Assembly: GCA_023014365.1 (NCBI GenBank) | Contig: JAEBUN010000072.1 | Location: 1-64,000 of the forward strand | Origin: Lepiota brunneoincarnata | Lineage: Eukaryota > Basidiomycota > Agaricomycetes > Agaricales > Agaricaceae | DNA: 64,000 bases | Direction: 5' to 3' | Shown: piece by piece, positions 740 to 64,000 of the stretch | Numbering within the stretch: the stretch's first letter is position 1 | Layout of the letters: the number at the start of each line of letters is the position of its first letter | Notes under the pieces: model-generated | What the model was told of the DNA's origin: nothing | Database searches by the model: none | Seen by the model: only the letters and a program-made list of their open reading frames with translations | Translations under genes and position numbers: made by a program

Positions 740-1044
740 TGTAGAATAACTAAGACTCAGTAGCTTGTAACGCGAGTACTATATATTTTATACCTGTAGA
801 ATAACTAAGACTAACATAGGCATAAGTATCATAGTGGGAAAAACATGAGAAGACTCTACTCACCTCAGTAGCTCGTAACGCGAGTACTGAGGTGTCTAAC
901 GGCAGGCTGGTAGGTATATACACTACTGACAAATATCCATAAATGGGCGGAAACATGCCCAGTGTTGACAAACAATGTACAAACAAAAGAATCCCTAAAC
1001 GGGATATGTCGTGGAAAGCTTGACATGAGCTTGCTAGCTCAACA
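740..1044 (-). repeat. Copia-A 3' LTR (left copy)
   Basis: This 305-bp LTR matches 13248-13552 with about seven differences, nearly all CpG to TpG/CpA transitions. In element sense it holds a strong hairpin (plus 861-894), then a GTGAGT..TTAG intron-like segment (811-863, minus), then a second copy of the surrounding sequence that lacks the segment (740-779). It ends in TTCTACA. Confidence 0.93.
811..863 (-). other. Intron-like segment in the Copia-A LTR
   Basis: In element sense this 53-nt segment starts GTGAGTAG and ends TATGTTAG. The flanks (CTACTGAG before, TCTTAGTTATTCTACA after) are repeated at 740-779 with the segment precisely absent and one transition difference. The same segment lies at 13319-13371 in the other LTR. 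No transcript evidence is available. Confidence 0.6.
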
Positions 1045-1053
1045 CTCCCCCTC

Positions 1054-4887: not shown

Positions 4888-4941
4888 GTATTATCAGACT
4901 CACACTCCTCCTGTCCATCACATTTCTGATCCCTTCTAACC

Positions 4942-6348: not shown

Positions 6349-9300
6349 TTGGCGGTCCTCAGGCCTCTGCACAGACTGAGGATCGCATTGAACTCTGCTG
6401 TGCTCCAGAGAGTTTCCGTCTCAATGCGTCCGCTCTTTCCAACCCAAACTCTTTTCATATTACATTAACTTCTCCATTAGTTACTTCCTTATCTTCTGTT
6501 TCTGCTTCCGTACTCTCCGCTTCGGACCCGCTTTCTACAACGGACAATGTAGTTAGTTCTGATTTCTCTTCTCTTTCTCCTTTCAAGGCTCTTGTTGATA
6601 GTGGTTCTACTCACTGTTTTGTGGACTCATCTTTTGTTCGTTCTCATAGTATTCCAACCTCGTCCATCCCAGCTATTGAACTTCGGTTATTTGACAGAAC
6701 CTCAAATGCCTACATTACAGAGCTTGCGCAACTGCCTGTATCTTTCCCCTCCAGTGAATCTATCATTTTGGACACTTATGTCACCCGGCTCGACTCTTCC
6801 TGTTCTGTGGTCTTAGGACACAACTGGCTCACCCGCTACAATCCGTTGATTGACTGGGCTTTGGGCAGTATCACTTTCTGGCCATCCCTACTCAAGAATC
6901 CTGCTTCCGTCTCTACCTGCGTCGCACCCGCATTGGCCCCGCTTATGGCCGCCCCTGACACTCCTGACCTAGGCTCACCACCCCTGTCCGGGACCTCGTC
7001 CCAATCTGCCCCCATTGCGAAACCACATGTCTCCCTGATAAACGCTCCTGCCTTTGTCCACGCTGCCAAGCTCCCTGGCTCCCAACAATTCCGAATCAAC
7101 CTCTCCGCTGCCTCCGCATCGGCCGCGTCTTCTTCCGTCTCCGAAGACCCGGCTAACCTCTCATCCATCCCTGAGGAATACCATGAGTTTGCAGATGTTT
7201 TCAGTAAATTGCGTGCTGACACACTCGCTCCACACCGCCCTTACGACCTCCAGATTAACCTAGAGGATGGCGGTCAGCCTCCAGTCGGTACCATTTATTC
7301 TCTTTCACAATCAGAGCTTGGAGCTCTACGTGATTTTATTGACGAACATTTGTCCATTGGTTTCATTCGCCCTTCCACTTCTCCTCATGGAGCCCCGGTC
7401 CTCTTCGTCAAGAAAAAGGATGGCTCCCTCCGCTTATGTGTTGATTTTAGAGGTCTCAACTGTATTACCAAGAAGGACCGCTACCCCCTTCCGCTCATCT
7501 CCGACCTCTTAGACTCTCCTCGCAAAGCCTGCATATATACCAAAATCGACCTCCGTCACGCTTACCATCTTGTCCGCATTGCTGACAGCGACGAATGGAA
7601 GACTGCCTTTCAGACCCGCTACGGCTCCTTCGAATGGATGGTTATGCCTTTCGGCCTCACCAATGCCCCTGCCACTTTCCAGCGGTTCATGAACAATATA
7701 TTCAAGGACATGCTCGATGTCTGCGTCACCATCTATCTTGACGATATCCTGATATACTCCGACAATCATAGTATCCATCATGACCAAGTCAAGGAGGTCC
7801 TCAAGCGGCTCCGACAACACGGTCTATACGCCTGCCCCGACAAATGCCAGTTCCACTCTGACACAGTGGAATATCTCGGCTACATTCTTTCCCCCGATGG
7901 TCTCCAAATGGACCAATCTAAGGTCAAGACCATCCAGGAGTGGCCTGAACCCAAGAAAGTCAAGGACATCCAGTCCTTCTTAGGTTTCGCCAATTTCTAT
8001 TGTCGCTTCATTCACGGTTACTCCAACATCGTCATTCCGCTCACTCGCCTCACCTGCAAAGACGTGAAATGGAATTTCACTGACGAATGTCGTGAAGCCT
8101 TCAGTTCCCTGAAAGAAGCATTCATGTCCGCCCCCGTCCTCACTCCTTGGACCCCCAATGCTCAGATCATTGTTGAGACCGACGCCTCCGACTACGCCCT
8201 TGCGGCCATCCTCTCTATCATCGCCGATGATGGTGAGGTTCACCCCGTTGCATTCCATTCCTGCACCTTTAACACGGCCGAACTTAATTATGACACCCAC
8301 GACAAGGAACTCCTGGCGATATTCGAGGCTTTCCATATCTGGCGGCACTATCTTGAGGGTGCCCCTCTTACTATTGATGTAGTCACCGACCACAAAAACC
8401 TCGAGTACTTCTGCACCACCAAGATCCTTACTCGCCGCCAAGCTCGTTGGTCCGAGTTCCTATCCCAATTCCACCTCGTCATCCGGTTCCGACCTGGCCG
8501 CCTCAGCACCAAGCCTGATGCCCTAACTAGACGATGGGACGTCTACCCTAAAGGGGGGAATAGCGACTATGCATCAGTCAACCCACACAATTTCCGGCCC
8601 GTATTCACCCACGAGCAGCTTGCGGCCTCCATCCGCGCCACCACTCTTTACGCCCCTTCCCTTCGTGCTGCTGTAGTCATGGATCTCGACCAGCTACACC
8701 ACGATATCCTCACCGCTCTACCAGCGGATCCGACCGCCTCCGCCCATCTTGCTAGCCCAGAAGGCCATTGGTCAGTTAATGATAAAGGTTTCCTCCTCTT
8801 AGACGACAGAATCTACGTCTCTGATGCCGACAATCTCCGACTTCGGGTCCTCCAGTACAAGCACGATCATGTCCTAGCCGGCCACTTCGGTCAGAATAAA
8901 ACGCTGGAACTCATCCGGCGTGAATACACCTGGCCTAGTGTCCGCACCTTCGTCAAAGATTTCTGTAAGTCTTGTGTCACCTGTATGAGGTCTAAACCCC
9001 AGCGCCACCGCCCCTATGGTCTCCTCAAGCAACTCCCCATCCCTGAACGCCCGTGGAATTCAATCTCCATGGACTTCATCGAAAAACTCCCTGCCTCCTC
9101 CGGCTACGATGCCATCCTAGTAATAGTCGACAGACTCACCAAGCAATCCTTATTCATCCCCACCTACGATACCGTCACTTCCTCCGACCTCGCCCGCCTA
9201 TTCGTCCTCCACGTCTTCTCCAAGCACAGCGTACCCGAACATGTTACCTCCGACCGCAGCTCTGAATTCGTCTCCCACTTCTTCCGCTCCCTAGGACAAG

Positions 9301-10148
9301 CCCTCAACATGAAACTACACTTCACTTCAGGCTATCATCCAGAAGGCGACGGACAGACGGAACGCACCAACCAGACCCTGGAACAATATCTCCGGGTCTA
9401 TTGTAACTACCAACAGGACAATTGGTCCGAATAACTACCACTAGCTGAGTTTGCATACAATAACGCCCCTAGTGCCACTACCGGTATCTCCCCGTTCTTC
9501 GCTAACAAAGGATACCATCCGAATATCACAGTTCACCCTGAACGCGACCTCGCCTCTGCCCAGGCCCGTCATTTTGCTGTTGATCTCGATGACCTACACA
9601 CCACCTTGAAGTCTGAAATAGCGTTAGCCCAGCAACGCTATCAGGCCTCCGCCGACGCCCGCCGACTCCCCGCCCTGGACTTCAAGGTTGGACAAAAGGT
9701 ATTCGTGAAAGCCCAATTCTTCCGCACCACCCATCCTTCCAAAAAACTCTCCGAAAAGTTCCTTGGGCCTTATGAGATCATTGCACAAGCAGGTACCCAT
9801 TCCTTTACACTCCGACTTCCTGATTCCATGCGTGGAGTACACCCCGTCTTCCATGTTTCCATGCTCGAACCGGCTACGCCTAACACCATACCCACCCGAT
9901 CGGACCCGCCACCTGCGCCAGTTTCTATTGACGGTGAACCAGAATACGAGATCGCCCGCATCGTCGATTCGAAGATTGATCAGCGCCGCGCATGCAAGCT
10001 CCTCTATAAAGTCATCTGGTTAGGTTATGAAGATACTGAAGAAGAATCCTCATGGTTACCAGCAACCGAGCTTGAACACACTACCGATCTAGTAGAGGCT
10101 TTCCACTCCTCTTACCCCTCTAAGCCTGGTCCCCTCCACTCACTCTGA
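6339..10148 (+). pseudogene. Gypsy-A pol: protease, RT, RNase H, integrase, chromodomain
   Basis: The frame stays open across the gag stop and shows, in order: an aspartic protease (ALVDSGSTHCF, near 6588-6620), RT (DFRGLNCITKKDRYPLP, then YLDDILIYS at about 7734), RNase H (ETDASDYALAAIL near 8173), the integrase zinc finger (HFGQNK...CKSCVTC, about 8880-8985), the integrase core (SMDFIEKL near 9066, then HPEGDGQTERTNQT) and a C-terminal chromodomain (YEIARIVDSK...YKVIWLGYEDTEEESSWLP, about 9945-10110). A single in-frame TAA at 9432-9434 interrupts the integrase between NWSE and LPLAEFAYNN. The chromodomain puts the element among chromoviruses, whose integrase tail is thought to bind modified histones. 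Confidence 0.9.
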
Positions 10149-10207
10149 ATTTTCTGCTGACCACCCACCACACCAAGAAACAAAAAATATTATTGGACAA
10201 GTACAAA

Positions 10208-11313
10208 CTACCTGTCCGTATCGTTCCCAGAGGTACAGGGCGGCGCTGCCGCGTCCTCCATCATACCTCGCACCTCCTCTTCCGAAATGCCCCCGATGCT
10301 CTCCGACTCCGACTCCTCCGTCTCCGTAATACCCCTACTCGGCCAATCACCATCCACCTGCGCTTCCCAACGCCGCAGCTGTTCGTAGCGGCCAGCCATC
10401 AATTCAAACTTATCCACCCTCTCCCCCAACCGAGCGATGGCCCGTTCGAGCCGCACCTCCATGATATTCACCCGCTTGAGGGTCTTCTGGTGCCCCTCCT
10501 CGATGAGTCGCTTCAGCTCTACGTGATCTTTTGGTCAGCAAACCTTGCAGCCAGAAACCCCTACTCACCTTCAAATTGGTGGTCCGGCATACCTCCGGCC
10601 CCGCTTGGCTCCGTCTCTTCTTGACCCCCGCATCGTTTCTTCATTTTGCTACACCATCGGCAACTCCTAGTGTTGCTGGGACCTTTGTCAGCATTTATCA
10701 TCATTGGAATTCTTGTAGTTACTTACCCGCCGGCAATCTCACACCGGACCTCATCCCGTTGACATCTCCAGCATGGGTTATCGCCCCCGAATACGTGTTT
10801 GTTGCCCCGCCGCAGGGCCGCCCTTGCCTTTCCCTTTCCTTTTCCCCTTCCCTTTGCATCCGAATCTTCGGACTCCTCCTCCTCCTCCTCTTCATCCCTC
10901 GCCGCGTCTTTGCCCGTGTAATTTGGGTCGGACTCTTCCTGGTTGATTTCCATGGGCTGCTCTGGCAGGCGGCTAGACGAAGCCGTCGTGGTCATCGCAA
11001 CGAGTCGGGCCTGGATCGCCCGACATTCGTCCTCGGCAGCTTCCTCTTGCTGCCGCCTGATCTCTTCCACCCGTCACTCCCTAGCCCGCTCCTCCGCTTG
11101 CCGCTGACGCAGTTCGATCATACATCGCCGATCTTCCTCTTGACGCTCTGCCGCCAACCACCATTCCTCCTCTCGCCGTTCCTCCTCTTGCCGTTCCTCC
11201 TCTTCCAACCTCTCGATCTCCTTCCGCATCCGCTCCTCCTGCTCCGCCTTTTCCCTCAGTAACTGCGCCTTGCGCTCTGCCGCGGTTGGTTGTCGAGATG
11301 ATTGGCTGCTCAT
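10208..11313 (-). CDS. Antisense spliced accessory gene in Gypsy-A with two Cys clusters
   Basis: This gene lies between pol and the 3' LTR and is transcribed against the element. Three exons fit one frame: 11313-10727, 10675-10569 and 10518-10208, 1005 nt in all. The introns are 51 nt (GTAAGT...CCAG) and 50 nt (GTGAGT...GTAG). Residues 1-110 form a highly charged Glu/Arg coiled-coil; an acidic-basic linker follows. A first cluster, CWRCQRDEVRC, stands just before intron 1 and a second, CRWCSKMKKRC, just after it, each with CX2C plus a later Cys as in a zinc-binding module. A second helix (ELKRLIEEGHQ...) and an acidic tail end it. One TGA at 11074-11076 interrupts the frame in this copy. I do not recognise a named family; DNA binding or chromatin action is only a guess. 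Confidence 0.7.
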
Positions 11314-11445
11314 GGTGGTAGGAAGTCAAGTTGTGTATTTTTGGACCGAGCCAGTTCACCGTTTTTTATACCCTGCCGGAATTTTCCGATGGGCCCCGGC
11401 CTAGGCCGCCTTGGGCCTTGAGGCTCGGCCCTAAAGGGGGGGCAC

Positions 11446-12105
11446 TGTCATATCCATGCCAACTCAGAGTCTAATCACTTAAACTTCGGCTTCTCGATTC
11501 CACATGTGCTCCACACAACAACCCTCTGCCCTCCGACTCGGCCCCGACTTACTCCAACCGCAACCCACTGCCCCAATCATGCGACCACCTCCACACGTGC
11601 CGTGGTCACCTGACCCTCGGTGTCTCTAGCTCCAGTCTCCATTTCCCGTCCGTAGTCAAGATACGTTATCGGTCTCCATACCTGTACCGGTTTCCATTCC
11701 ATTCATAATCTGTTCGTAATCCATTGTAACTATATCAGCCTCCGCTTCGCTCCGCACGTAATCAGTACAAGTCATAGTTCGTAAGGCCAGTAGTATATAT
11801 ACTGTAGGTACTTGGCTTGTACTCCTCAGTCTGATAATCGAATCAAGCAGCGGACTAGCTCCCTGTTCTCTATCCTCTCCTCTCTTCTGCCTCGCTCCGC
11901 TTCGGCCCCGACTTCCTGAAATACGGACTAGGACAGTAGGAGGGCACAGCACATACGCTGAGGCTGCAAGTCCAACCCCCCGCCCAACGTACTCCGCCTC
12001 GGTCCCGAAGTCTACGTACTGACTTCGCCCTGTCCCCCGGTTACCTTATATCAAGGTTACCACCCTGACCCTCCGCCTCGGTCCCGACCCGCACCGGCTC
12101 TAACA
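11446..12105 (+). repeat. Gypsy-A 3' LTR
   Basis: This 660-bp partner of 4224-4887 is followed by the GTGGG duplication, where Copia-A gag resumes. All 13 substitutions against the 5' LTR lie at CpG sites. Confidence 0.95.
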
Positions 12106-13186
12106 GTGGGTGTTCCTCTGACTGAGCTGCAATTGGCATCTCATCGCTTTCGTCTGTGAGGGCGCATTCATCGTTTTGTTCCCCACAGGTTGGGAATATG
12201 TCTGGTGAGGTAAGGTTGTCCTCGTCACCCAGGGTCTCTGTTTCCACAAAAAAGGCTTCATCATCCATCGCGACTGCATTGGCCTCCTGCCCCTTTGGGG
12301 CACTAGCTGGTTGTTTCTTTTTCTTTGGTGGTTTCAGACAGTCCGATCTCCAGTGGCCTTTCTCGTTGCAGTTAAAGCATTTTCCAGGTGGTTCCTTTGT
12401 CTCCTGTCTAGGCTTCTTGGGACCATGTTCTACTGCCATAGTGTCATCCCCCTCCGAATTCTTTGGTTTAGCCTTGGAGCTGGAACTTGACCCATGTGAC
12501 TTCCATGAGCATAGGCGATCCCATTCATCACACAACATGGTGACTAACATATCGGGGTGTACTGTGCCTCCTATGATTTTCGCTGCAGATAGCTGTGATG
12601 ATGCAAAGTTTGCAAGTTGGAAGGGAAGTGATCGAAGTATTGTGCTTCAGTAGTCATCATCATTGATTGTTATTCCCATCGCATACAGCTCTGCTCTCCT
12701 GGTCCTCAGATCATTTAGGAACATCCTAACATCACCATCCTTGGGACATCTGGACTCCAAAAACTTTGCCCGCATCTCCATTTGGTTGAAAGCCCCTCGG
12801 TATGTGAATTCTTGTACTACAGCATCCCAGACTTCCTTGACATAGTCGAAACTCTCCATCATTATCAGGATAGAGTCTGGTAAACATTGTGACAGCAGGG
12901 AACACGCTCTATCCTCATTTCTGTCCCATTCTTGGATGTCTGCATCTGTTCCTACAGGGACTGTGGGGGTAGTGCTCTTTGCTTTGCCTTTGTTGATGGA
13001 TGGGGTACTGGGAGGGGTGGTTGATGAAGTGGTAAGGGTGGGATGTGGCTTGCTTCCATCAAAGTGACCCCATAGTCCTTTTCCACGTATGACAGTATGG
13101 AAACGCACGGAGAATATTAGCCAGTTTGTGCCTTGGGGGTCAAGGGGTGGTACAGAGGTGGAGAGGTTGTCGTTTATGGTGTTCAT
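12106..13186 (-). pseudogene. Copia-A gag with zinc knuckle, separated from pol by Gypsy-A
   Basis: The minus-strand frame starts ATG at 13186 (MNTINDNLSTSVPPLD). It has the GKGLWGHFDGS signature of Copia gag polyproteins, then a UBN2-type gag domain (SLLSQCLPDSILIMME, FLNDLRTRRAEL). A TGA at about 12650, after INDDDY, is premature; the homologous Copia-C frame continues there. Downstream is a canonical knuckle, CFNCNEKGHWRSDC (CX2CX4HX4C), near 12340-12385. The frame then meets the Gypsy-A insertion and would continue in the protease at 4223. It is about 40-50% similar by eye to Copia-C gag, so this is a related but separate family. Confidence 0.85.
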
Positions 13187-13235
13187 GTTGTGTATGATGC
13201 ATTGTAATGAGTGTTAGAAAAATTTTTTTGGGTCG

Positions 13236-13247
13236 GGGCCCATAACC
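13236..13247 (-). other. Copia-A primer-binding site, initiator-tRNA half type
   Basis: Directly next to the 5' LTR, the minus strand reads GGTTATGGGCCC. This is complementary to GGGCCCAUAACC, the anticodon stem-loop of eukaryotic initiator tRNA-Met. Drosophila copia is known to prime with an internal fragment of that tRNA. The same word sits in Copia-B and Copia-C. Confidence 0.75.
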
Positions 13248-13552
13248 TGTAGAATAACTAAGACTCAGTAGCTTGTAACGCGAGTACTATATATTCTATA
13301 CCTGTAGAATAACTAAGACTAACATAGGCATAAGTATCATAGTGGGAAAAACATGAGAAGACTCTACTCACCTCAGTAGCTTGTAACACGAGTACTGAGG
13401 TGTCTAACGGCAGGCTGGTAGGTATATACACTACCGACAAATATCCATAAACAGGCGGAAACATGCCCAGTGTCGACAAACAATGTACAAACAAAAGAAT
13501 CCCTAAACGGGATATGTCGTGGAAAGCTTGACATGAGCTTGCTAGCTCAACA
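13248..13552 (-). repeat. Copia-A 5' LTR (right copy)
   Basis: This 305-bp LTR pairs with 740-1044. It carries the same hairpin (13369-13402) and the same 53-nt GTGAGT..TTAG segment (13319-13371), with the segment-free copy at 13248-13287 next to the primer-binding site. TAACT follows at 13553-13557. Confidence 0.93.
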
Positions 13553-51689: not shown

Positions 51690-52811
51690 GAGGAAAAGGA
51701 TGGGTCAATGCGTGCATCCGGAACCTTAGTATAGAACCAGACACGACAAGCCGTAGGATATACGCGGAGGGCATAAGTGCACGAGGATAGTCAAGCTTCA
51801 CTATCCCAGATCTCCCGCGCTTCGGCATGCTATGGGTCCTTTGCCGTGGCTGGTGATGCATATTCAGTTTGAAGCAGCTCTCATGCAGATACATGAGCCT
51901 TTTTTTCCATATGGAACGGACACCCCTGATCCTCAGCTGAAATAGCCTCGACCTCCGTGTAACAAATATGATAAAGGTGCTTGAACGAGTCATAAATTCG
52001 TTGGTAGTTGGAGCATCTGACTCTGTTCACATGAATTCTTGGGTACTTCCGCCATGAAAAGATGAGCAGAGCTGGTGGTGAAAGCTGAGCAGAGGGGAAT
52101 ACGTGGCTCAGCGCCCAACTTGGACTTGACATTCAAACATCGAAAGGGAGACAGACTGAAAACCTTTGTTGTATATGGGACGGGAGGAGCGATCGAAATT
52201 AGACAACTCACCTAAATCCATCTCGAGTCTCTACTGGTGCACCTGCCTTGAACCCATCCACCAAGCACACCCAGACCCACAAAGTGAGGATACAAACAAT
52301 ATAGGAAGGAGGGAGAACGTGTTCTGGGGAAACAGGTCGCGGGAACAGTTTAGAGATTCGGCAAAGGCATCTTGTTGATCGTGGGCAAGGTCCCCAAGGA
52401 GGACACCAGCATCCATAATTGTATGAACTGTGTATCGTACATCTTTCTTGGGATATTGGAGGATCAAAGGCGTTGGGCTTTGGGCAGGCGGTGTGGAATT
52501 TCCTGATATAATTTTTCAACAAGTATAGCGAGTAATTCCCCCGGGAAGCACAATGCGTATATGGGTTGGACACTCTGGGGCGATGGAGAGGGCACAACCA
52601 GTGATGGAGTAGTCATACACAAACTTGCCTGCTATGCACCTGAATCACGTAAGTAGACACTCCGTGGATCATCGGTCTTTGCAGACAAGCTGTACATGAT
52701 TTCCACACGTGTTGCACACAGCCCCCTCCACCGCATCTTCATAAACATGCATTCCACAACACCAAGCTAGTCGATAGCTCGCATTCTACCCATCAACGCC
52801 TCCAATAATCC
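51690..52811. repeat. Upstream part of duplicated NACHT unit 3, with DSN1 5' relic
   Basis: Co-linear with 38360-39569 and 55955-56924. The DSN1-5' relic is at about 52495-52600 (TTCAACAAGTATAGCGAGTA, GGGTTGGACACTCTGGGGCG). Confidence 0.7.
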
Positions 52812-55197
52812 ATGTCAGACTGGAGCCTGGCACATATCGCACCACAATTCGGATTTCTCAGCCATGCACACAATATTGTCATGCGCAATCCAGTGATGAT
52901 CGATGTCAACTTCAGCGATGACAGTAAACGCTGTACGACTCGCTGTGCCGAATAATCGCTCCTTATTGACATCTGGTTCACTCATAGTGGCGTTTGAATC
53001 GCTCAGACAAAATACAATTAAAGGCGCACAATTCGATTCTTCCGCCCGCCATCCTCCTCCTCAATGTCATCCAGGCACTCGAAAACATATCATTGAAAGG
53101 ATCCGACATTGGTTTCGTGATACACACCACCAGAGGATACTCTGGCTCGTTGGATCTGCTGGAGTTGGTAAATCAGCAATAGTTCAGACCCTCGCCGAGT
53201 TGGAGGCAAATTCTCCCGGCCTCACCTTGGGCGCGACCCTGTTCTTTTCCAGACCCAACAATCGCAGTGACCCAACCCGAGTCTTCATTACCCTCGCTCA
53301 CCAAATCGCCCTCCAATGCCCACCATACCGCGAATTCGTCACACGCAAAATGCTCACCGATCCAGAGCTCCCAGAGAAGTCGATGAAGACCCAGTTTGCG
53401 AAGCTCATATTCGAGCCTTTCGTCCAGCACAATATATTTCTGGGATCCGGTCTTCTGTTGATATTCCTTGACGGTCTGGATGAATGCAACGGTGACCGTG
53501 AGCAGTGCGAAATCGTCGGTCTCATCTCATACCTTTCCCTCGCCTATCCGGATGCACCTCTTTTGTGGATCATCGCGAGCCGTCCGGAGGCCCACTTGAA
53601 AGGTGTATTCTATCGCAAAAGTATTGCTTCGAGCTACGAAGCAGTGGAGGTCCCAGTTGATTCGGACCAGGCATGTGCCGATGTCGAATGCTACTTACGA
53701 AGCGAGTTTGAAAGGATCCGAAAATGTGACCCCATCGCACGCCTTCGCTCTCAGTGGCCGACAGAAAACGAGCTCCTTATGATTGCGGCAGCATCGGCTG
53801 GGCTGTTTGCATTCGCATCAACTGTGATCAAGTTCATCGATGATCCAATTTTTGGAAACCCTGTTTCTGGCCTTGTGCTTTTACTCGCCACAATCAAAAA
53901 GCTCCCCCAGGACCCATCGAACGGGAGGATGCACCCATTGGCTCATCTTGATGCACTCTATACGTGCATACTCTCCCAAATTCCCAAAGCCATTTTGCCC
54001 CAGACCAATGCACTACTCATAGGTCATGATGTTTCGGAACTCCGGGAGGCCAAACTAGTCTTCATTTGTAATTGGGCAGGTATCACACCACAAGATGCCT
54101 ATGGGGCGCTTCGCCGACTTCATTCTATTCTCTTCATCCCAACACCTGAGGATGCCGAGCATAATCGCCTATCTTTTTATCACCAATCCTTCTATGAATA
54201 CCTCAAAAATCCCAACCGGTCGCATGAATTTCATATCAGCAATGCTGATATGAACAAGCTCGAGCTGGACTGCTGTTTCCGCATCACAAAAGAGGCTCAT
54301 ACAGGTAATGTCCACGTCGTCTCTGCACAGCTAATCTTATTCTGGTTCTAGGCATGGTTATTGGGGGAGAACAGTCCAAAGTAACTCTCTCCTGGCTAAC
54401 CAACCACCGTCACCTATGGCAGGGAGACCTCCAAAGGTGGGCAGCCCGGAGTTTTACAGGTATTATTGACCGCTATGACGCTGGCCTCGTCCTGGCCAAG
54501 CTTCGGGATCCGGCTATGCCCCAGATCGCACGAACATTTGATCTTGTATGGTCGTGGTTCAGGTACAACATTGACCACAATTCCCACGCGAAATATATTC
54601 AATACATACAACACCGACTGGTATGTGTTACTATGACATATCTAGTTACCCCTAATCAACTACTTGTCACTCAGGATCCGAGGATCCGTGCCGAGTTGGA
54701 ACGACTGAACCTGCTCCGACAAGTACCCATTGGAACTCTCGACTTGGATGACCCCGTTTTTGCTAGAGGGGATGAACGTGTATATACTATCTGTGAATCA
54801 GACGGCTCTCACCCACTCGGAGGATGGACCTCTGACGACTGGGTTCTACCTCCCCACCCGGGACCTGACTTGTGGAAGGGCCCGACATGGGTGAGTCGAT
54901 ATGATAAAACATCATTAAGAGGGTATGATTTGTTGATCTGAGCATGTTGGCCAGGTGGACTACAAATCTGAATATAAGTATTGGTGGTCTAAACAGCATA
55001 CCATACTTCTGCTAGCGTTCCTCCACAGTCTGCGTTTCATCCAAGCACACTCACCAGATACGCCAGTGTTGTTTTTTGGAAACATTAACCGAAGCATTCT
55101 TATATATGAATTCAAAATACCTGATAGGTCTCAGCGCTGGACATACTGGGCACAGCTATTATTTCCCAAAGAAACGCTGATCGGAGTCCGGGGGTGA
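52812..55197 (+). CDS. NACHT NTPase copy 3 (short NLR-like), intact
   Basis: Five exons give a 721-residue frame: 52812-52932, 52988-54304, 54352-54620, 54675-54890 and 54955-55197. Exon 2 is exactly as long as in copy 1 (1317 nt). It has GAQFDSSARHPPPQCHPGTR, Walker A GSAGVGKS and Walker B LLIFLDGLDE. The linker is in frame here (GHDVSELREAKLVFICNWAG). The C-terminal exons keep YKYWWSKQH and SPDTPVLFFG. It is about 85-90% identical to copy 1 by eye. With copy 1 it is the likely functional member of this cluster. Confidence 0.87.
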
Positions 55198-55489
55198 TCA
55201 GGGTGACACTGTATGTAGATATTGTTTTCCTAACTTGTATTATCTGCGGTGAATCCATTACGACGAGGAGCTGAAGACAAAGGTGTGTTGAACATAGACA
55301 TGAATTTGTGTGTGAAAGTTACCGCCTCTCATATCTGTGCCCCAATCCCTGTCTTGATCAAGTCGCTCTGGGCGGATTGTTTTCTCTTCATAATCTCTAC
55401 CATGACACTTTTGTCTACAGCCGAATCTCCGAGAACTACCAAGATCGCACCTGTCAGGGGGTACACGAGGGCCCCTGGTGCCTCCCAGG

Positions 55490-55954
55490 GCGTTCGTCCC
55501 ACTCGCATTCATCAACGATAGCAGCGATGGCCTTGTGCGTAGTCACCCGTTGCACTCGATCCGCGGTGTCTTGTTTGGGGGGATGGGAGGAGAGGTGTCC
55601 ATGTGCAGCCCTTGCCACTGCGTGTCATTAGCTCCGATCGGGAAAAGTGGAACGCGTGATTCAGGTTCTTCCACGACTGCCGGACCCTCGATTAGCTCCA
55701 AGGACGGCCGACTTCATTCATACTGCGGATGGCAGCCTTGAGTTCAGAGTCCTTTGGGCATGCGTGGCGGTGTGTTGCATACATATCGAGAAGGCTTAGG
55801 CCTAAGGTGTGGCGGGTTGTGATGAGGCACGGAACTTTTCGAGTGGAGGATGGGAGGACAAGGGACTTGGGAAGTGGGGAAGAGGCTGGGATGTGATGGG
55901 ATGAAGGGGAATAGAGGTATGGGAGGACGGGAGAAGCTAAGATGTGGAGAAGGA
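55490..55954 (-). pseudogene. DSN1 relic D (exon 3 pieces)
   Basis: CATCAACGATAGCAGCGATGG, CGATCCGCGGTGTCTTGTTT and GGGAGGAGAGGTGTCC (55508-55600) match DSN1 exon 3 near 30550-30640. TTTTCGAGTGGAGGATGGGA (about 55837) matches exon 3 near 30888. No open frame. Confidence 0.65.
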
Positions 55955-56930
55955 TGAGCCCTTGCCGTGGCTGGTGATACATACTCAGTTTGAAGCAGCT
56001 CTCATACAGATACATGAGCCTTTTTTTCAATATGGAATAGATGCTCCTGAACCTTAGCTGAAACCGTCTCGACCTCGGTGTAACAAATATGATAAGGATG
56101 CTTGATCGAGTCACAATTTCATTGGTAGTTGGAACATCCGACTGTGTTCACATGGATTCTTGGGAACTTCTGCCATGAAAAGATGGGCAGAGCTGACGGT
56201 GGGAGCTGAGCAGGGGGGAATGCATGGCTCAGCGCCTAACTTGAACTTGACATCCAGGCGTCGAAAGGGAGACAGGCTGAAAGCCTTTGTGGTATTTAGG
56301 ACGGGAGGAGCGATCGAAATAAGAAAACCCACCCAAATCCATCTCGAGTCTCTACTGGTGCACCTGCCTCGAACCCATCCACCAAGCACACCCAGACCCA
56401 CAAAGTGAGGATGCAGACACTGTAGGAAGGAGGGAGAACGCGTACCGAAGGAAACAGGTCGCAGGAACAGTTTAGAGACTCGGCAGGCAGGATCCCTGAG
56501 AAGAACGCCAGCACCCATAATCGTATGAACTGCGTATCGTATGTCTTTCTTGGGGCACCGGAGGATTGAGGGCGTCGGCCTTTGGCAGGCAGTATCACGA
56601 CTATGGATGTAGAATTTCCTGACATAATTCTTTAACAAGTGTAGCGGGTAATTCTTCAGGAAGCACAGTGCGTATATGGGTTGGACATCGTCTGGAGCGA
56701 TAGGGAGGGCAAAACCAGTGATGGAGTGGTCACCGCCTGCTGCTACGCACCTGAATCACGTAAGTAGACGCCCAGTGGATCATGGTCTTTGTAGGCTAAA
56801 GCTGTACATGATTTCCATATGTGCTGCACACAGCCCCCTCCACGACACCTTCACAAAACATGCATTCCACAACGCCAAGCTAGTCGATAGCTCCCACTCT
56901 ACCCATCAACGCCTCCGATAATCTATGTCA
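55955..56930. repeat. Upstream part of duplicated NACHT unit 4, with DSN1 5' relic
   Basis: Co-linear with the upstream parts of units 1 and 3. The DSN1-5' relic is at about 56615-56720. It ends at the original start codon of NACHT copy 4 (ATG 56925-56927), where Copia-C is inserted. Confidence 0.75.
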
Positions 56931-57171
56931 TGTCGAGCTCGCAAACGCGTGCCGAGTTCCGGTCTCCGTTTAGCTGGCGTCCTTTTCCCGCCCTTTTGTG
57001 TTTGTTCCATATCCCGTGCTCCGTTTCTCTTGCACGGTCTCTACCGTTTTTATCTTTTATGCTATGCCCTTACCGTCCTCCTCTGCCCGTACACTATTGC
57101 TATTGTGCTTATTGTCTACGTACAAGCGCGTGTATCGTAGTGTTAGATAAATAGTCTCTTGCTTGTAGTCG

Positions 57172-57201
57172 CACTTCAGCTCTCGCGTCGAGACTGAAGT
57201 G
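57172..57201 (+). other. LTR hairpin ending in a splice-donor-like GTGAGT
   Basis: CACTTCAG(C)TCTCG pairs with CGAGACTGAAGTG around a CGT loop: 13 pairs with one bulged C. The last stem bases, GTG, are also the first bases of GTGAGT. Copia-A (861-894) has an analogous hairpin at the same place. Confidence 0.8.
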
Positions 57202-57246
57202 AGTATTCTATCAATACCTTTAATTACTGTACTGACTACTTTGTAG
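57199..57246 (+). other. Intron-like segment in the Copia-C LTR
   Basis: 48 nt start GTGAGTATTC, contain a branch-like TACTGAC and end CTTTGTAG, all typical of this genome's introns in sequence and size. The flanks, 18-19 nt before and 21 nt after, occur again fused at 57280-57319. It also lies at 62029-62076 in the 3' LTR. Confidence 0.7.
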
Positions 57247-57319
57247 TATACCTTACTACGTTCTACAGGTAAACTCTAGCTCTCGCGTCGAGACTGAATA
57301 TACCTTACTACGTTCTACA

Positions 57320-57332
57320 GGTTATGGGCCCC
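57320..57332 (+). other. Copia-C primer-binding site, initiator-tRNA half type
   Basis: GGTTATGGGCCCC abuts the 5' LTR and is complementary to the anticodon stem-loop of initiator tRNA-Met (GGGCCCAUAACC), as known for Drosophila copia. Confidence 0.8.
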
Positions 57333-57382
57333 GCGCCAACGTGCTATTAACCAGATAACCGAATACATTGATCTATTGTGCA

Positions 57383-60300
57383 ATGTCTACTGTAAACGAT
57401 ATGCTCCCTACGTCAGTACCAAAGCTGGATGTGTCTGGGGGAAACTGGGCAATCTTTGTGCTACGTTTCCAGACAGTAATCCAAGGAAAGGGACTGTGGG
57501 GCCATTTCGATGGTAGTTTGCTGCGTCCTGAACTCCCAACCTCAACCAGTGGGTCACAACCCACAGCCACTCTTTCCACTGCTCCCACAGCTCCTGCTAC
57601 CACCACCCCTGTTACGACTGCTCCCACAGCTCCTACTACAACCACACCTGCTGCTCCTATTGCCACTACTGAAATGGTCGAGACTTGGGAAAGGAACGAA
57701 AATATCGCTCGCTCCTTGCTTGCCCAACGTCTCCCAGATTCCACGCTAATGGTCACTGCTGGTCATCATACTGTCAAGCTGATGTGGGACTCTATAAAGC
57801 GAGAATACACTTACAAGAGTGCCTTCTCGCAAGCTCGGCTTCGTCGCGAATTTATGACCATGCGATGCCCTGACAGGGGTGATGTTCGTCTATTCCTAAA
57901 CGAGATACGTTCCCGAAAGGCCGAGCTGGGTGCTGTTGGTGTCACCATCAGTGACGACGACTATAGGAGTGCAATCCTCCAGTCCCTACCCCGTTGGTTA
58001 TCATCCTACGCATCAAATCAATTATCTGCTGCCCAACTTCATAGTTCCCTCCAACATACCATTGAGCCCGAAATCCTGATCATATTGATTAGCGATGAAT
58101 GGGAGCGAGCACGCCCTGAACGATCAAGGGCTGGAAACGCTAAACCGGAACACGACGATGCCCTGGTTACTGAAGGAAGCAAAGGTAGCAATGGAGGTGG
58201 GAAGCCGAAAGGGAAGGGAAAGAAAAAGGGTCCGTGCTGGAACTGCGGTGGTGAACACTGGAAGCGAGAATGTCCCAACCCGAAAAAGCCTATCAGCGAA
58301 AGGAGGGATGGGGAGAAAGGAGGAAACTCACCTAACAAGAAGGGTGGAAGTGCTAATGCCGTGATGGCGGACAGCGATGATGAGGATTGCTCCCTCATGA
58401 TTGAGGAGTGGTTGGACTCCGAAACGGATGCAAGCTGGTCAGAAGTCGAAACGAATCTTACCGGGTCGTGGAGTGAAGAGGAGTCAATGAGCGAGTTTGA
58501 TGACCTTGACATTGACGACTTCAGTGTAGCTATTGATGAAGTTGTAAGTGCCACTGAACCAAGCCCAACCCAAGTCGAAGTTTTCGACTCAGGTGCTACA
58601 AATCACATCTCCCCATACCGAGATATTTTTGCGACCTTCCAACCCATCCCACCTCGACCTCTACGTGCTGCAAACAAGAAGGCCTTCAATGCCATTGGAA
58701 AGGGTGAAGTAGTACTAGAATTGCCGAACGGAGCTACCTCATCACAACTCCACCTCAGCGAAGTCCTGTATTCACCTGAGGCAGGCTACACTCTTGTGTC
58801 GATTGGCCGACTTGATGACGCTGGCTTCTCAACCACCTTCGCCAATGGCAAGTGCATCATTCGTGATATGGGTGGTGCCCGGATTGCCGAGATCCCGAGA
58901 ACCGGACGAGGCCTGTATAAATTGATCAAAGAGACAGAAGAGGTAAATGTGGTGAGCGAACCACTCAGCTTGGACATGCTGCATCGTCGCCTAGGCCACA
59001 TTTCAGCTGGTGCTGCTCGAAAGCTTATTCGCGATGGCCTGGTGACTGGCCTAAAGCTAGAAGATGGAACGGACACAGACATTTTCTGCGAGTCATGTGC
59101 CTATGGCAAAACAACTCGGCTGCCGATTTCAAAGGTCCGGGAGGGTGAGAGAGCATCATCGCTCGGTCAGGAGATCCATTCCGATGTCTGGGGGCCTGCA
59201 CGAGTGGAGACAAAGCGAGGAAAGCGTTACTACGTGACCTTTATCGATGACTTCTCAAGGTGGACTCACATCGATTTCCTCTCAAACAAGTCCGACGTTT
59301 TCAATGCCTACCAGAACTTCGATGCGTGGTGTGAAACACAATTTGGCACGCGTATTAAGGCCCTACACTCGGACAGAGGTGGGGAATACACCACAGGCGA
59401 GTTTCAGTCCTATCTAAAGTCCCGAGGCACGGAAACCAAGCTCACTGTACACGACACACCCCAACACAATGGGATTGCCGAACGCCAAAATCGAACGATT
59501 GTTGAGCGCACGCGTGCAATACTGCATGCAAGTCGCCTCCCAAAGTTGCTATGGGCAGAAGCGGTTGCCCATGTAGTTTGGTTGATGAACAGGACTGGTA
59601 CCCGAGCAGTTGAGGGGAGAACGCCGTTCGAAACAATATATGGCCGCAAACCAGACTTGCGAGCAGTATGCGAGTGGGGAGAGGAGGTGTGGGTACACCA
59701 GGCAGGAGGGGACAAGCTCGGTGGGCGAGCGAAGAAAGGGAGATGGGTCGGGTATGATGCCGAGAGCAATGGCTCTCGCATCTATTTTCCGGACACAAGT
59801 GCTATAAAGATCGAGCGTAATTTCCGTTTTATTAACTCAGGTCGTCCTGGGCTCGAAGGGGAGCACTCACCAGCAAGCGAGCCTAGAAACGACCCATTAC
59901 GCAGCACTAGTGCCCCAAACGAGACACAAGACACCCCCACCCCCTTCCCTGATCAACAACCAGCCGATTTCACAGCCGATTCCCAAAAAAGCGATGCTGA
60001 AAGCGACGTCAGCCCAAAGGAGTTGCCTAGCAAGGCTGATCCACAGGTACCAAGACCCCAGCATGCCCGAAATCCAAGCACCAAAGCTAAAGACATCCTA
60101 GAGGGGCGAGCAGTCACTCTGGCAGAAGAACAAGACTGGGCTGATGTTCATGTCCTAGCAGCAGACATTGAGGAGACCGAGGGATTGGAACCTGGGAGCC
60201 TGCAGGAGGCGAGGAAACGAGCAGACTGGGAGTTGTGGAAGAAGGCCATGGAGGAAGAACTTACTATGTTGGGCGATGCCGGAACGTGGGAACTTGTTGA

Positions 60301-61753
60301 TCGGCCAATCGGAGCTAACGTTGTCGGCTCAAAATGGGTCTTCAAAGCAAAAAAGGATGCCGCTGGAAATGTCGTCCGCTACAAGGCCCGCCTCGTCGCC
60401 CAAGGTTTTTCACAAGTCCCGGGAGTTGACTATTTTGATACCTTCGCGCCTGTTGCACGCCTTGCGTCCATCCGGGCTGTGCTCGCAATCGCCGCTGCTT
60501 GTAACTACGAGATACACCAGATCGATATCAAGGGGGCTTACCTAAACGGGAAGCTAGGCCCTGATGAGTCGATTTACATGCGACAACCCCCTGGTTTCAC
60601 ATCCCCAACTCACCCCCACCATGTTTGCCACCTCAAGAAGACCCTCTATGGACTCAAACAATCCGGGCGGCAATGGTACCAACGTCTATGCGAGATCCTA
60701 GTCGACCACTTGGGCTTTACACGCTGTGAAGTTGACCAGAGCGTATTCTTCAAACTTGTGGCACCGGACCTCACCGTAATTTTAGTGCACGTTGACGACT
60801 GCACGCTCGTTGCATCGACCATCACGCTGGTAGACTGGGTAAAGGATGGGGTTAAGCGGTTCGTTGAGATCACAGATCTAGGAGAAATTCACTGGCTCCT
60901 GGGGATTGAGGTGAAGAGAGACAAAGAGCAGGGTAAGCTCTTGCTGTCTCAACGTTCATATATTGCTGCTTCACTCAGACGCTATGGGCTCGAGAACGAG
61001 AAGCCAGTCAGTACCCCGATGGACCCTGCCGTCCGCTTAACGAGCGAGCAGTCGCCACAAACGACCGCCGACATCGCTCGCATGGCCAGCAAGCCCTACC
61101 AGGAGGCCGTTGGCACTCTGATGTACGCCGCCATGGGAACGCGACCGGATATCGCGTACACCGTTCAAGTCCTCTCGAAATTCACGAAGAACCCTGGAGA
61201 GGCACACTGGGAAGCGGCCAGGAGAGTGTTCCGGTACCTGAAGGGTACACAGGATCTGTGGCTCATTTACGGAGGCTATGGAGAAGGCCTCGAAGGCTTT
61301 ACGGACGCCGACGGCAACATGGCAGAGGACCGCCGTGCCACGTCTGGCTACGCCTTCATTATCAACGGCGGCGCAGTTTCTTGGAGCGCAAAACGTCAAG
61401 AAATCGTCACTCTATCTACTACCGAATCGGAATATGTGGGTGCTACACACGCTTCGAAGGAGGCCTTATGGCTTCGTTCACTCATTTCTCAGGTTTTCGA
61501 TACCACTATCCCTTCCACCACCATTTTCTCCGACAACCAATCAGCCATCGCGCTATCCAAGGACCACCAGTACCACGCGCGAACGAAACACATCGACGTT
61601 CGCTACCACTTCATTCGTTGGATCATCGAGGAAGGCAAAATCCGGCTCATATATTGCCCTACTGAGGACATGGTGGCCGACGTCTTCACCAAAGCCCTCC
61701 CCTCGCCGAAAGTCAAACATTTCGCGCGAGAACTCGGACTCGCTACGGTTTGA
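57383..61753 (+). CDS. Copia-C gag-pol polyprotein, intact
   Basis: 1456 residues in one frame from ATG 57383 (MSTVNDMLPTS). In order: Copia gag with GKGLWGHFDGS and a UBN2-type region; a zinc knuckle at about residue 285, CWNCGGEHWKREC, with spacing CX2CX3HX4C, one residue shorter than usual; aspartic protease (FDSGATNHISPY, about 402); GAG-pre-integrase (HRRLGHIS...CESCAYGK); integrase (HSDVWGP about 601, LHSDRGGEY, HNGIAERQNR); RT (YKARLVAQGFSQVPGVDY, then HVDDCTL about 1137); RNase H (TDADGNMAEDRRATSGY, HIDVRYHFIRW). The order integrase before RT defines Copia. It makes the particle, processes itself, copies the RNA and inserts the cDNA. Confidence 0.95.
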   Translation: MSTVNDMLPTSVPKLDVSGGNWAIFVLRFQTVIQGKGLWGHFDGSLLRPELPTSTSGSQPTATLSTAPTAPATTTPVTTAPTAPTTTTPAAPIATTEMVETWERNENIARSLLAQRLPDSTLMVTAGHHTVKLMWDSIKREYTYKSAFSQARLRREFMTMRCPDRGDVRLFLNEIRSRKAELGAVGVTISDDDYRSAILQSLPRWLSSYASNQLSAAQLHSSLQHTIEPEILIILISDEWERARPERSRAGNAKPEHDDALVTEGSKGSNGGGKPKGKGKKKGPCWNCGGEHWKRECPNPKKPISERRDGEKGGNSPNKKGGSANAVMADSDDEDCSLMIEEWLDSETDASWSEVETNLTGSWSEEESMSEFDDLDIDDFSVAIDEVVSATEPSPTQVEVFDSGATNHISPYRDIFATFQPIPPRPLRAANKKAFNAIGKGEVVLELPNGATSSQLHLSEVLYSPEAGYTLVSIGRLDDAGFSTTFANGKCIIRDMGGARIAEIPRTGRGLYKLIKETEEVNVVSEPLSLDMLHRRLGHISAGAARKLIRDGLVTGLKLEDGTDTDIFCESCAYGKTTRLPISKVREGERASSLGQEIHSDVWGPARVETKRGKRYYVTFIDDFSRWTHIDFLSNKSDVFNAYQNFDAWCETQFGTRIKALHSDRGGEYTTGEFQSYLKSRGTETKLTVHDTPQHNGIAERQNRTIVERTRAILHASRLPKLLWAEAVAHVVWLMNRTGTRAVEGRTPFETIYGRKPDLRAVCEWGEEVWVHQAGGDKLGGRAKKGRWVGYDAESNGSRIYFPDTSAIKIERNFRFINSGRPGLEGEHSPASEPRNDPLRSTSAPNETQDTPTPFPDQQPADFTADSQKSDAESDVSPKELPSKADPQVPRPQHARNPSTKAKDILEGRAVTLAEEQDWADVHVLAADIEETEGLEPGSLQEARKRADWELWKKAMEEELTMLGDAGTWELVDRPIGANVVGSKWVFKAKKDAAGNVVRYKARLVAQGFSQVPGVDYFDTFAPVARLASIRAVLAIAAACNYEIHQIDIKGAYLNGKLGPDESIYMRQPPGFTSPTHPHHVCHLKKTLYGLKQSGRQWYQRLCEILVDHLGFTRCEVDQSVFFKLVAPDLTVILVHVDDCTLVASTITLVDWVKDGVKRFVEITDLGEIHWLLGIEVKRDKEQGKLLLSQRSYIAASLRRYGLENEKPVSTPMDPAVRLTSEQSPQTTADIARMASKPYQEAVGTLMYAAMGTRPDIAYTVQVLSKFTKNPGEAHWEAARRVFRYLKGTQDLWLIYGGYGEGLEGFTDADGNMAEDRRATSGYAFIINGGAVSWSAKRQEIVTLSTTESEYVGATHASKEALWLRSLISQVFDTTIPSTTIFSDNQSAIALSKDHQYHARTKHIDVRYHFIRWIIEEGKIRLIYCPTEDMVADVFTKALPSPKVKHFARELGLATV

Positions 61754-61760
61754 AGGGGAG

Positions 61761-62149
61761 TGTCGAGCTCGCAAACGCGTGCCGAGTTCCGGTCTCCGTT
61801 TAGCTGGCGTCCTTTTCCCGCCCTTTTGTGTTTGTTCCATATCCCGTGCTCCGTTTCTCTTGCACGGTCTCTACCGTTTTTATCTTTTATGCTATGCCCT
61901 TACCGTCCTCCTCTGCCCGTACACTATTGCTATTGTGCTTATTGTCTACGTACAAGCGCGTGTATCGTAGTGTTAGATAAATAGTCTCTTGCTTGTAGTC
62001 GCACTTCAGCTCTCGCGTCGAGACTGAAGTGAGTATTCTATCAATACCTTTAATTACTGTACTGACTACTTTGTAGTATACCTTACTACGTTCTACAGGT
62101 AAACTCTAGCTCTCGCGTCGAGACTGAATATACCTTACTACGTTCTACA
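61761..62149 (+). repeat. Copia-C 3' LTR, now the 5' leader of NACHT copy 4
   Basis: Looks identical to 56931-57319. Its last base (A, 62149) is the first base of the ATG that now opens NACHT copy 4. There is no ATG between the hairpin (62002-62031) and that codon. Confidence 0.95.
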
Positions 62150-64000
62150 TGTCAAACCAGAGCCTGGGATACGGAACGCAGCTTGGATTTCTCAATCATG
62201 CACACAATATTGTCATACGCAATCCAGTTATGATCGACACTGTGAACGTTAGCCATGAAGATAAATGCTGTACGACTCGCCATGCTGAATGAATGATACC
62301 CTACTGATTTCTGACTCACTCGTAGCGGCATTTGAATCGCTCAGACAAAAAATAATTAAAGGCGCACAATTCGATTCCTCCTCTCGTTATCCCCCTCCCC
62401 AGTGTCATCCAGGCACTCGAAAAAATACCATCGAAAGGATCCGACATTGGCTCCGTGATGCCCACTACCAGAGGAGACTACTCTGGCTTGTCGGATCCGC
62501 TGGGGTCGGCAAGTCAGCGATAGTCCAGACCCTCGCCGAGTTGGAGGCAAAATCTCCCCATCTCACCTTGGGCGCAACCCTATTCTTTTCCAGACCCAAC
62601 AATCGCAATGACCCATCTCGGGTCTTCATCACTCTCGCTTATCAAATTGCCCTCAAATGCCCGTCATATCGCGAGTTCGTCATACGCGAAATGCTTGCTG
62701 ATCCGGAGCTCCCAGACAAGTCGATGACGGCCCAATTCGCGAAGCTCATATTCGAGCCTTTCGTCCAACACAATATATTTCAGGGACCCGGTCCCTTGTT
62801 GATATTCCTTGATGGTCTGGACGAATGCAACGGCGACCGTGAGCAGTGCGAAATCATCGGTCTCATTTCGTACCTTTCCCTCGCTTATCCACACACACCC
62901 CTTCTGTGGATCATCGCGAGCCGTCCAGAGGCCCACTTGAAAGGTGTATTCTATCGCAAACGTGTTGCTCTGAGCTACGAAGTAGTGGAGGTTCCAGTTG
63001 ATTCGGACCAGGCATGCGCCGATGTCGAATGGTACTTGCGAAGCGAGTTTGAAAGGATTCGAAGAAACGACCCCATCGCACGCCTTCGCTCCCAGTGGCC
63101 GACAGAGGACGAGCTCCTCACAATTACGGCCGCATCAGCTGGGTTGTTCGCATACGCATCAACTGTGACCAAGTTCGTTGATGACCCAATCTTTGGAAAC
63201 CCTGTTTCTGGGCTTGTGTTGTTACTCGCCACGATCGAACAGCTCCCCCAGGACCCATTGAAAGGGAGAATGCACCCATTGGCCCATCTCGACGCACTCT
63301 ATACGTGCATACTCTCCCAGATTCCCGAAACCATTTTACCTGACACCAATGCACTACTCATAAGTCGTCGTACATACTTGGCTCCATAGGGATAAAAACC
63401 TAGCCTTCATTTGTAATTGGGCAGGCATCACACCTCAAGATGCCTATGGAGCGCTTCGTCGACTTCATTCCGTTCTCATCATCCCAACACCCGAGAAAGC
63501 CGAGCATTGTGGCCTATCTTTTTATCACCAATCCTTCTACGAATACCTCAAAGATGCCAACCGGTCGCATGAGTTTCACATCAGCAATGCTGACATGGAT
63601 AAACATGAGCTGGACTGCTGTTTCCGCATCACAAAAGAGGCTCACACAGGTAATGACCACATCAACTCTGCAAACCCGATCTCATTGCGGTTCTAGGCAT
63701 GATTGTCGGGGAAAAGGCATCCAAAGTAACGCTCTCCTGGCCCAACAATAGTCCTGAATGGCAGGAAGACCTCCAGTTTCGTGCGGCCCGGAGTTTTACA
63801 GGTATTATTGGCCGTTATGACCCTGACATTGTCCCACCCAAGCTTCGGGATCCGGCTATGCCCCAGATTGCACGAACATTTGATTTTTTTTGGTCGTGGT
63901 TCAGGTACCACATTGACCCCGATTCCCATGTGAATTATATTCAATACATAAAACACCGACTGGTGTGTCTTTTTATGATATATATATCTAGCTGCCCCTA
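62149..64000 (+). pseudogene. NACHT NTPase copy 4, LTR-driven, frameshifted, cut by window end
   Basis: Exons by homology: 62149-62269 (MSNQSLGYGTQLGF), 62326-63649 and 63697-63962, then an intron running off the window. Walker A (GSAGVGKS) and Walker B (LLIFLDGLDE) are intact. After PDTNALLIS the linker carries four nt more than copy 3 between CTCAT and ATTTGT, so the frame stops at 63387-63389. The following ICNWAGITPQDAYGALRR is readable only in another frame. The product would be about 395 residues ending just past the NACHT module, if translated. The start codon was rebuilt by the Copia-C insertion. Closest by eye to copy 1. Confidence 0.82.

Follow-up and report, generated by a model that had tools for sequence, protein, structure and literature searches.

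An intron-like segment in the LTR of a Copia element

The window, by which we mean the whole 64,000-nt stretch of Lepiota brunneoincarnata DNA analyzed here, contains a complete Copia retrotransposon with the following features.

56926..62154, complete Copia retrotransposon, including target-site duplications (TSDs)
56926..56930, no strand, left TSD, TGTCA
56931..57319, + strand, 5′ LTR in double (D) form, 389 bp, TG...CA
57146..57153, + strand, TATA-like GATAAATA, placed 32 nt before A1 begins
57172..57201, + strand, predicted RNA hairpin, the stem of which includes GTG, the first 3 bases of the splice donor
57178..57198, + strand, A1, upstream "exon" repeat and presumed start of R, 21 nt
57199..57246, + strand, intron-like segment (i), 48 nt, GTGAGT...TACTGAC...TTTGTAG
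57247..57267, + strand, B1, downstream "exon" repeat, 21 nt
57268..57277, + strand, x, comprising GGT (resembling the start of the primer site) and a 7-nt spacer
57278..57298, + strand, A2, repeat of A lacking the outer hairpin strand
57299..57319, + strand, B2, second copy of B and last part of the LTR
57320..57336, + strand, primer binding site GGTTATGGGCCCCGCGC, directly after B2
57383..61753, + strand, single, intact gag-pol ORF of Copia type
61751..61760, + strand, polypurine tract TGAAGGGGAG, preceding the 3′ LTR
61761..62149, + strand, 3′ LTR, 389 bp
62008..62149, + strand, A1-i-B1-x-A2-B2 array of the 3′ LTR, with i at 62029-62076
62150..62154, no strand, right TSD, TGTCA

The two LTRs, of 389 bp each, are 100% identical. 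The LTR end follows the order A1-intron-B1-GGTx-A2-B2, then the primer site, such that A2B2 equals A1B1 minus the 48 nt (GT...AG) at every letter. An earlier reading made from the sequence alone had reported a repeat of 40 nt at this position; the repeat is there, and its true length is 42 nt.

The gag-pol ORF comprises Retrotran_gag_2 (89–219), gag_pre-integrs (511–576), rve (598–688), and RVT_2 (968–1213) domains. This order, with the integrase before an RVT_2-type reverse transcriptase and a copia-type gag, is that of Ty1/Copia elements (Pseudoviridae), as are the TG..CA ends of the LTRs and the 5-bp TSD. Drosophila copia and Ty5 are half-tRNA-primed examples of the genus Hemivirus within this group. 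In the window element, 16 nt of the primer site (57321–57336) are the complement of a segment from the anticodon arm of a tRNA-like sequence (GGCGCAG..GGGCCCATAAC, CAT anticodon) that occurs at three places in the host genome and that we take to be the initiator tRNA. Such a short tRNA segment, pointing to half-tRNA priming, is the property by which Hemivirus is defined (Pseudoviridae definitions, PMC8515867). The window element thus shares with Hemivirus Ty1/Copia elements the order and domains of gag-pol, the LTR ends, the TSD length, and an anticodon-arm primer site, and differs from them in having an LTR intron together with a spliced copy. Diverged direct repeats (83–94% identity) surround the element at 51838–56930 and 62172–63986 of the window, spaced about 4.1 and 9.3 kb apart, and a 366-aa ORF begins downstream of it at 62289.

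The double layout across the genome

In the genome, the primer-site pattern ACAGGTTATGGGCCC recurs at 295 places with no more than two mismatches, compared with 58 for a reversed-pattern control. One hundred of the 295, all exact matches, were taken with 330 nt of upstream sequence each and searched by a script that seeks a spliced repeat and has no GT/AG rule built in. The double layout is present at 30 of the 100 sites with detector scores of at least 30, whereas dinucleotide shuffling gave a single match per 1000 shuffles, with a score of 13 and no GT-AG ends, which excludes a chance origin of the layout. The intron-like segment and its adjoining spliced copy, as first described from the window alone and exact in both LTRs there, are therefore real, and we rejected the possibility that they are a rare oddity of one element.

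The 30 doubles were sorted by eye into ten sequence groups (F1–F10), of which F1–F3 are closely related. These counts are of places rather than of independent insertions: some contigs have common flanks (L219/L220), copies inside one group are not independent, and all data come from one genome. The reverse transcriptase region of F5, F8, and F9 elements is ∼61–69% identical to that of the window element, with decay accounting for part of the divergence. In all 30 doubles the gap between the copies is exact, 48–54 nt long, and bounded by GT..AG, with the donors GTGAGT (19), GTGAGC (10), and GTAAGT (1). The interiors of these segments diverge from group to group while their ends stay constant. 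GGT directly follows B1 in every double, in agreement with the earlier observation that the first copy carries the GGT of a primer site. Introns of this length are typical of fungi. The features of a spliceosomal intron (GT-AG ends, short length, exact exon junction) are thus found in 30/30 doubles, and the proposal that the second copy is the product of GT-AG splicing extends to about ten sequence groups. We infer that a spliceosomal intron spans the presumed R-U5 region of this half-tRNA-primed Copia LTR.

The converse, that the segment was never spliced and arose by insertion or deletion with GT..AG ends by chance, is very improbable given the consensus-like donors, the narrow range of lengths, and the constant ends around diverging interiors in 30/30 doubles. 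In its favor is the YTRAY-like branch motif, found 15–18 nt before the intron 3′ end in only 5 of the 10 group representatives (F1, F2, F3, F6, and F7). The absence of this motif from the F4, F5, F8, F9, and F10 representatives also counts against the explanation that we prefer below.

The remaining 70 primer sites were classified by eye. A single unspliced A-i-B form (U) is present at 12 (L096, L099, L112, L132, L134, L146, L161, L164, L173, L179, L182, and L183) and a single intronless A-B form (S) at three (L114, L148, and L178). One site is a double with a damaged A1 (L165), two are interrupted or truncated (L124 and L147), and one is a chimera in which A1 and A2 are unlike (L162), which counts against our preferred explanation. 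Seventeen sites belong to LTR families of different sequence, termed class II (e.g., L088, L095, L117, and L177), Copia-like LTRs in which the whole 5′ hairpin region A, or its end, is repeated past a GT-started segment; four others are intronless counterparts of these (L156, L163, L170, and L171). At the last 30 of the 70, no such pattern was seen by eye. At these 100 sites, the comparison of LTRs with and without the segment, suggested at the outset as a check, has returned D, U, and S forms, and precise GT..AG gaps throughout the 30 doubles. L219 is a further intronless version of the class II layout. A separate LTR family (L092, L123, L144, L149, and L175) has a GTGAGT-like motif and a CAACAG end at the primer site, and might contain an intron spanning U5; no doubling was seen in this family.

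Group F5 is represented in the window by a second Copia element on the reverse strand.

740..1044, − strand, 3′ LTR of the F5 Copia element, double form, TSD AGTTA
13248..13552, − strand, 5′ LTR of the F5 Copia element, double form, TSD AGTTA

The LTR starts of this element (740–13552) lie ∼12.5 kb apart, so it probably contains nested insertions. Pattern counts for F5 across the genome, at two mismatches, gave 41 A-B, 57 i-B, and 31 B-x junctions, with 0 for the reversed controls. The intron precedes all 31 B-x junctions and A precedes none, such that the intronless double A-B-x-A-B is absent there (0/31). Twelve A-B junctions have no i-B upstream. Five of these are S forms (L205, L206, L207, L209, and L210) and five are diverged or damaged doubles (L098 and L211–L214), including a deletion through A1 and the donor in L211 and a joining to a different LTR in L214; the others are a double broken by an insertion (L208) and one A-B junction left unassigned (L147).

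Concerted change and unlike LTR forms

The two copies change in concert, as far as the bases that flank the splice junction. In 27 of the 30 doubles B1 equals B2 at every letter, and the total over all doubles is 4 differences in 549 sites, although B1 identity between the ten group representatives averages 0.67 and reaches 0.95 at most. Between A1 and A2 there are 63 differences in 757 sites of the 30 doubles, and, since 62 of them are transitions, the two were probably equal at insertion; the transitions would represent post-insertion decay, as expected under C-to-T mutation pressure. F1 and F2 are fully identical in A and 0.98 identical in i, and are separated in B by five differences that are the same in both copies. 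F2 has a mosaic structure, in that it resembles F1 in A1, i, and A2, and F3 in B1, x, and B2. In F4, A ends in GGCT ahead of the donor and copy 2 matches. The spacer x, by comparison with B, can be similar between groups (0.93 versus 0.57 for F4/F5; 0.88 versus 0.67 for F8/F10), and we rejected the idea that the doubling arose anew in every group because x is common to groups with different B. The sequence-only reading had treated the doubling as one old event. The concerted change of A and B between groups that share x does not support this, and indicates that the second copy has been repeatedly rewritten or homogenized.

A serious rival to rewriting from spliced RNA is ordinary repeat exchange, in which spliced RNA was copied once, long ago, and the copies were later homogenized only by exchange between tandem repeats, through unequal crossing-over or slippage of reverse transcriptase. 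We regard this as possible but on balance unlikely; evidence against it comes from the splice junction. Bases −1 and +1 vary between groups, yet they are equal between the copies in 30/30 doubles; among 29 F5 doubles, which are related copies rather than independent events, the +1 base is A/A in 11, T/T in 17, and T/C in one (28/29 agree). The neighbors of the junction differ, being intron in copy 1 and exon in copy 2, such that exchanges would have to end exactly at the junction. Ordinary recombination between repeats does not readily carry a change across when the intron lies on one side of it, whereas a spliced template does, and the junction-tight agreement therefore favors a spliced template. 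The argument is weakened by AG microhomology in those groups in which A ends in AG.

Repeat exchange gains from the variety of forms found within single elements. We assigned each LTR to a form, partly by eye, and took a census of 31 class I elements in which all five TSD bases are common to both LTRs (read by eye for C40 and C24:306590, and on the 3′ side for C48 and C13:44066). Given in the order 5′/3′ LTR, the forms are as follows.

D/D, 16/31 (11 F1/F2 and 5 F5)
D/U, 7/31 (C6:969591, C6:659964, C47, C69:710087, C24:191682, C20:512539, and C22)
U/D, 3/31 (C79, C6:1216411, and C48, of which the 3′ LTR is interrupted)
U/triple, 1/31 (C13:44066/39000)
S/D, 1/31 (C28)
U/U, 1/31 (C44)
S/S, 2/31 (C40 and C24:306590)

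Elements with unchecked flanks or an incomplete match were left out, namely C36 (D/D, 4/5 TSD bases), C38, C18, and C10:843194, as were an F4 pair on C25 and F8 pairs on C13 and C17. The triple form, A-i-B-x-A-i-B-x-A-B, is a 3′ LTR (L204:1-541; C13:38940-39480, − strand) paired with an A-i-B 5′ LTR. Intronless A-B elements with matching TSDs, read by eye, are bounded by L205/L206 and L215/L216. In the class II element C25:352552/358235 (TSD 4/5 bases), the 3′ LTR is full and the 5′ LTR lacks the intron. At C25:2370815-2381600, three LTRs (L173, L026, and L036; A-i-B, double, and double) may bracket two tandem element bodies.

LTR forms are thus unlike in 12 of the 31 TSD-checked class I elements, and mispairing of LTRs was rejected as the cause, since the TSDs match in 12/12. 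The ten F5 pairs carry 3–13 point changes per ∼164 nt, all of them transitions, and six of the ten are unlike in form; the differences number 3, 4, 4, and 5 in D/D pairs and 3, 5, 6, 6, 6, and 13 in unlike pairs. Age possibly contributes to the unlike forms. Form changes are frequent and probably made by template switching between repeats during reverse transcription, and later deletion is possible. The copy number of direct repeats in retroviral LTRs and vectors shifts by such template switching, and these repeats are often deleted, at a higher rate when a stem-loop separates them (PMC3187697). The frequent gain and loss of repeats (12/31 elements unlike, one triple), this retroviral behavior, and the absence of A-B-x-A-B all fit tandem-repeat exchange. 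The repeats of the window LTR are different from the retroviral ones in that they differ by exactly one intron and are homogenized.

RNA signals and a proposed replication cycle

Folds of copy 1 were predicted from A1 extended by 8 nt on its upstream side and by 6 nt of intron. The hairpin of the window element (57172..57201) has a predicted energy of −17.5 kcal/mol and a z of −3.5, and a hairpin is predicted in every group, F1–F10. The donor G is paired with a base upstream of A1 in 30/30 predicted folds, and both G and T of the donor are paired in 21/30; in the other nine, all in F6, F8, F9, and F10, the donor T lies in a T-T mismatch or a loop, a point against the explanation that we prefer below. 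One fold is weak (L101, −4.1), its A1 shortened by an indel. In F7 the donor GTA is opposite TAC, and in the other groups GTG is opposite CAC. Among group representatives, the mean energy is −18.1 kcal/mol with the group's own upstream strand versus −13.4 with the strands of other groups, but only in 6/10 groups (F6 being represented by L111) does the own strand come first or equal first, another point against our preferred explanation. Copy 2 starts exactly where the outer strand ends, and without this strand it folds more weakly (−4.2 to −11.5). Class II hairpins in L088, L117, and L177 also close over the donor region, and L104 folds otherwise.

The prediction of a hairpin in all groups, and the dominance of the double form (D/D in 16/31 pairs, U/U in only one), would suit convergence, in which both copies act as RNA elements through the hairpin and the primer-site context, and equally strong selection on each, with no copying, holds them alike. 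We consider this improbable: selection alone would allow neutral differences, yet B1 and B2 agree letter for letter in 27/30, and the five B differences between F1 and F2 recur in both copies.

In 18/30 doubles (F1, F2, F3, F5, F7, and F9), the left edge of A is preceded at 30–34 nt by a TATA-like box, making this edge a likely start of transcription, and the donor of the window element lies 21 nt downstream of this presumed start. No such box was found in F4, F6, F8, and F10 doubles, which again weakens our preferred explanation. These signals also raise the possibility of two start sites, with a longer RNA containing the outer strand, which would hide the donor, stay unspliced, and serve as genome, and a shorter RNA from the A edge, which would expose the donor, be spliced, and serve as messenger. 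This idea adds to the preferred explanation rather than opposing it. The position of copy 2 at the end of the outer strand and the TATA-like boxes are consistent with it, as are the different fates of HIV-1 start-site variants (PMC11331132 and PMC11998490). The four groups with no recognizable TATA box, and the preference for the own outer strand in 6/10 groups only, are not, and we consider two start sites rather doubtful.

The explanation that we prefer, with confidence divided about evenly for and against, is that the LTR intron is kept by mainly unspliced copying, and that occasional reverse transcription of spliced RNA rewrites the second copy. That the intron persists across groups implies that copying usually starts from unspliced RNA, the exactly spliced second copy implies that spliced RNA has been copied, and the junction-tight concerted change suggests that such copying recurs. 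Transcription would start where A1 begins or close to that point, and the 5′-terminal hairpin over the splice donor would leave part of the RNA unspliced. Unspliced RNA would be the usual genome, retaining the intron, and spliced RNA mainly messenger. When spliced RNA is occasionally reverse-transcribed, its strong-stop DNA would be B′A′, which could pair unbroken with A2B2 of the 3′ LTR and so rewrite the second copy. The first copy, which lies upstream and bears the intron, would meanwhile be copied from the 3′ end and the intron restored; a role of the R region in strand transfer is described in PMC12789967. Because spliced strong-stop DNA would pair better with A2B2 than with A1-i-B1, the simplest route is one that rewrites copy 2 and restores the intron. 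The second copy would keep the primer-proximal leader, A-B-primer site, in both forms of RNA, and act as acceptor for spliced strong-stop DNA. Pairing of B′A′ with A1 instead of A2 would give the intronless A-B form, and slippage of reverse transcriptase on the direct repeats the single A-i-B form. Alternatively, A-B forms can arise from A1-A2 deletion, and the triple form from unequal exchange. Spliced RNA of double elements would give A-B-x-A-B, and the 0/31 count therefore suggests that such RNA is rarely copied in full, and that rewriting would have to draw on single-form 5′ LTRs or on template slippage.

The claim that only unspliced RNA is packaged stands in part. Replicating RNA that is mostly unspliced fits the persistence of the intron in F5, F8, and F9 and the 0/31 intronless F5 doubles, but "only" is too strong in view of A-B elements with matching TSDs (both LTRs of C40 and C24:306590), although repeat deletion could also make these. 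A more specific form of the preferred explanation, which we put forward tentatively and with clearly less confidence, is that the LTR is proofed against loss of its intron. The pre-spliced copy of the leader exons would be a landing site for spliced strong-stop DNA, successive cycles would rewrite copy 2 while the 3′ LTR restores the intron, and the donor hairpin, possibly set by the start site, would select which RNAs are spliced.

An LTR with an intron beside its own spliced copy was not found in the open-licence literature that we searched. In HTLV-1 and foamy viruses the splice donor is in R, downstream of the cap, the unspliced RNA is the genome, and the acceptors are far downstream. We know of neither a complete intron nor a spliced copy inside the LTR of these viruses. 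The putative donor of the window element may likewise lie in R, but the position of its putative acceptor is unlike theirs. BARE1 of barley has one ORF with spliced and unspliced transcripts, and there is evidence against the copying of its spliced RNA into DNA; its 104-nt intron, however, begins right after the gag domain, outside the LTR, and a pre-spliced copy is absent from the descriptions in the available part of the source (PMC3735527). The window element shares the single ORF and may share the two kinds of RNA. Penelope-like elements can retain introns, and their terminal repeats carry TATA and initiator motifs, but they are a different class of element, and the sections of PMC3846280 at hand describe no spliced copy beside an intron. 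A candidate precedent for an LTR intron, PMC5542766, was rejected: it concerns a lentiviral vector called LTR1, with the intron in the leader.

Reverse transcription is expected to erase introns from a retroelement's own RNA, and here an LTR intron is present in many related groups, with the DNA next to it holding a matching record of the spliced product. It can now be tested how retroelements apportion their RNA to messenger and to genome, and whether re-entry of spliced RNA into the genome is regular. If the landing-site model is true, these LTRs would have a means of carrying an intron through reverse transcription that we did not find described in the literature searched.
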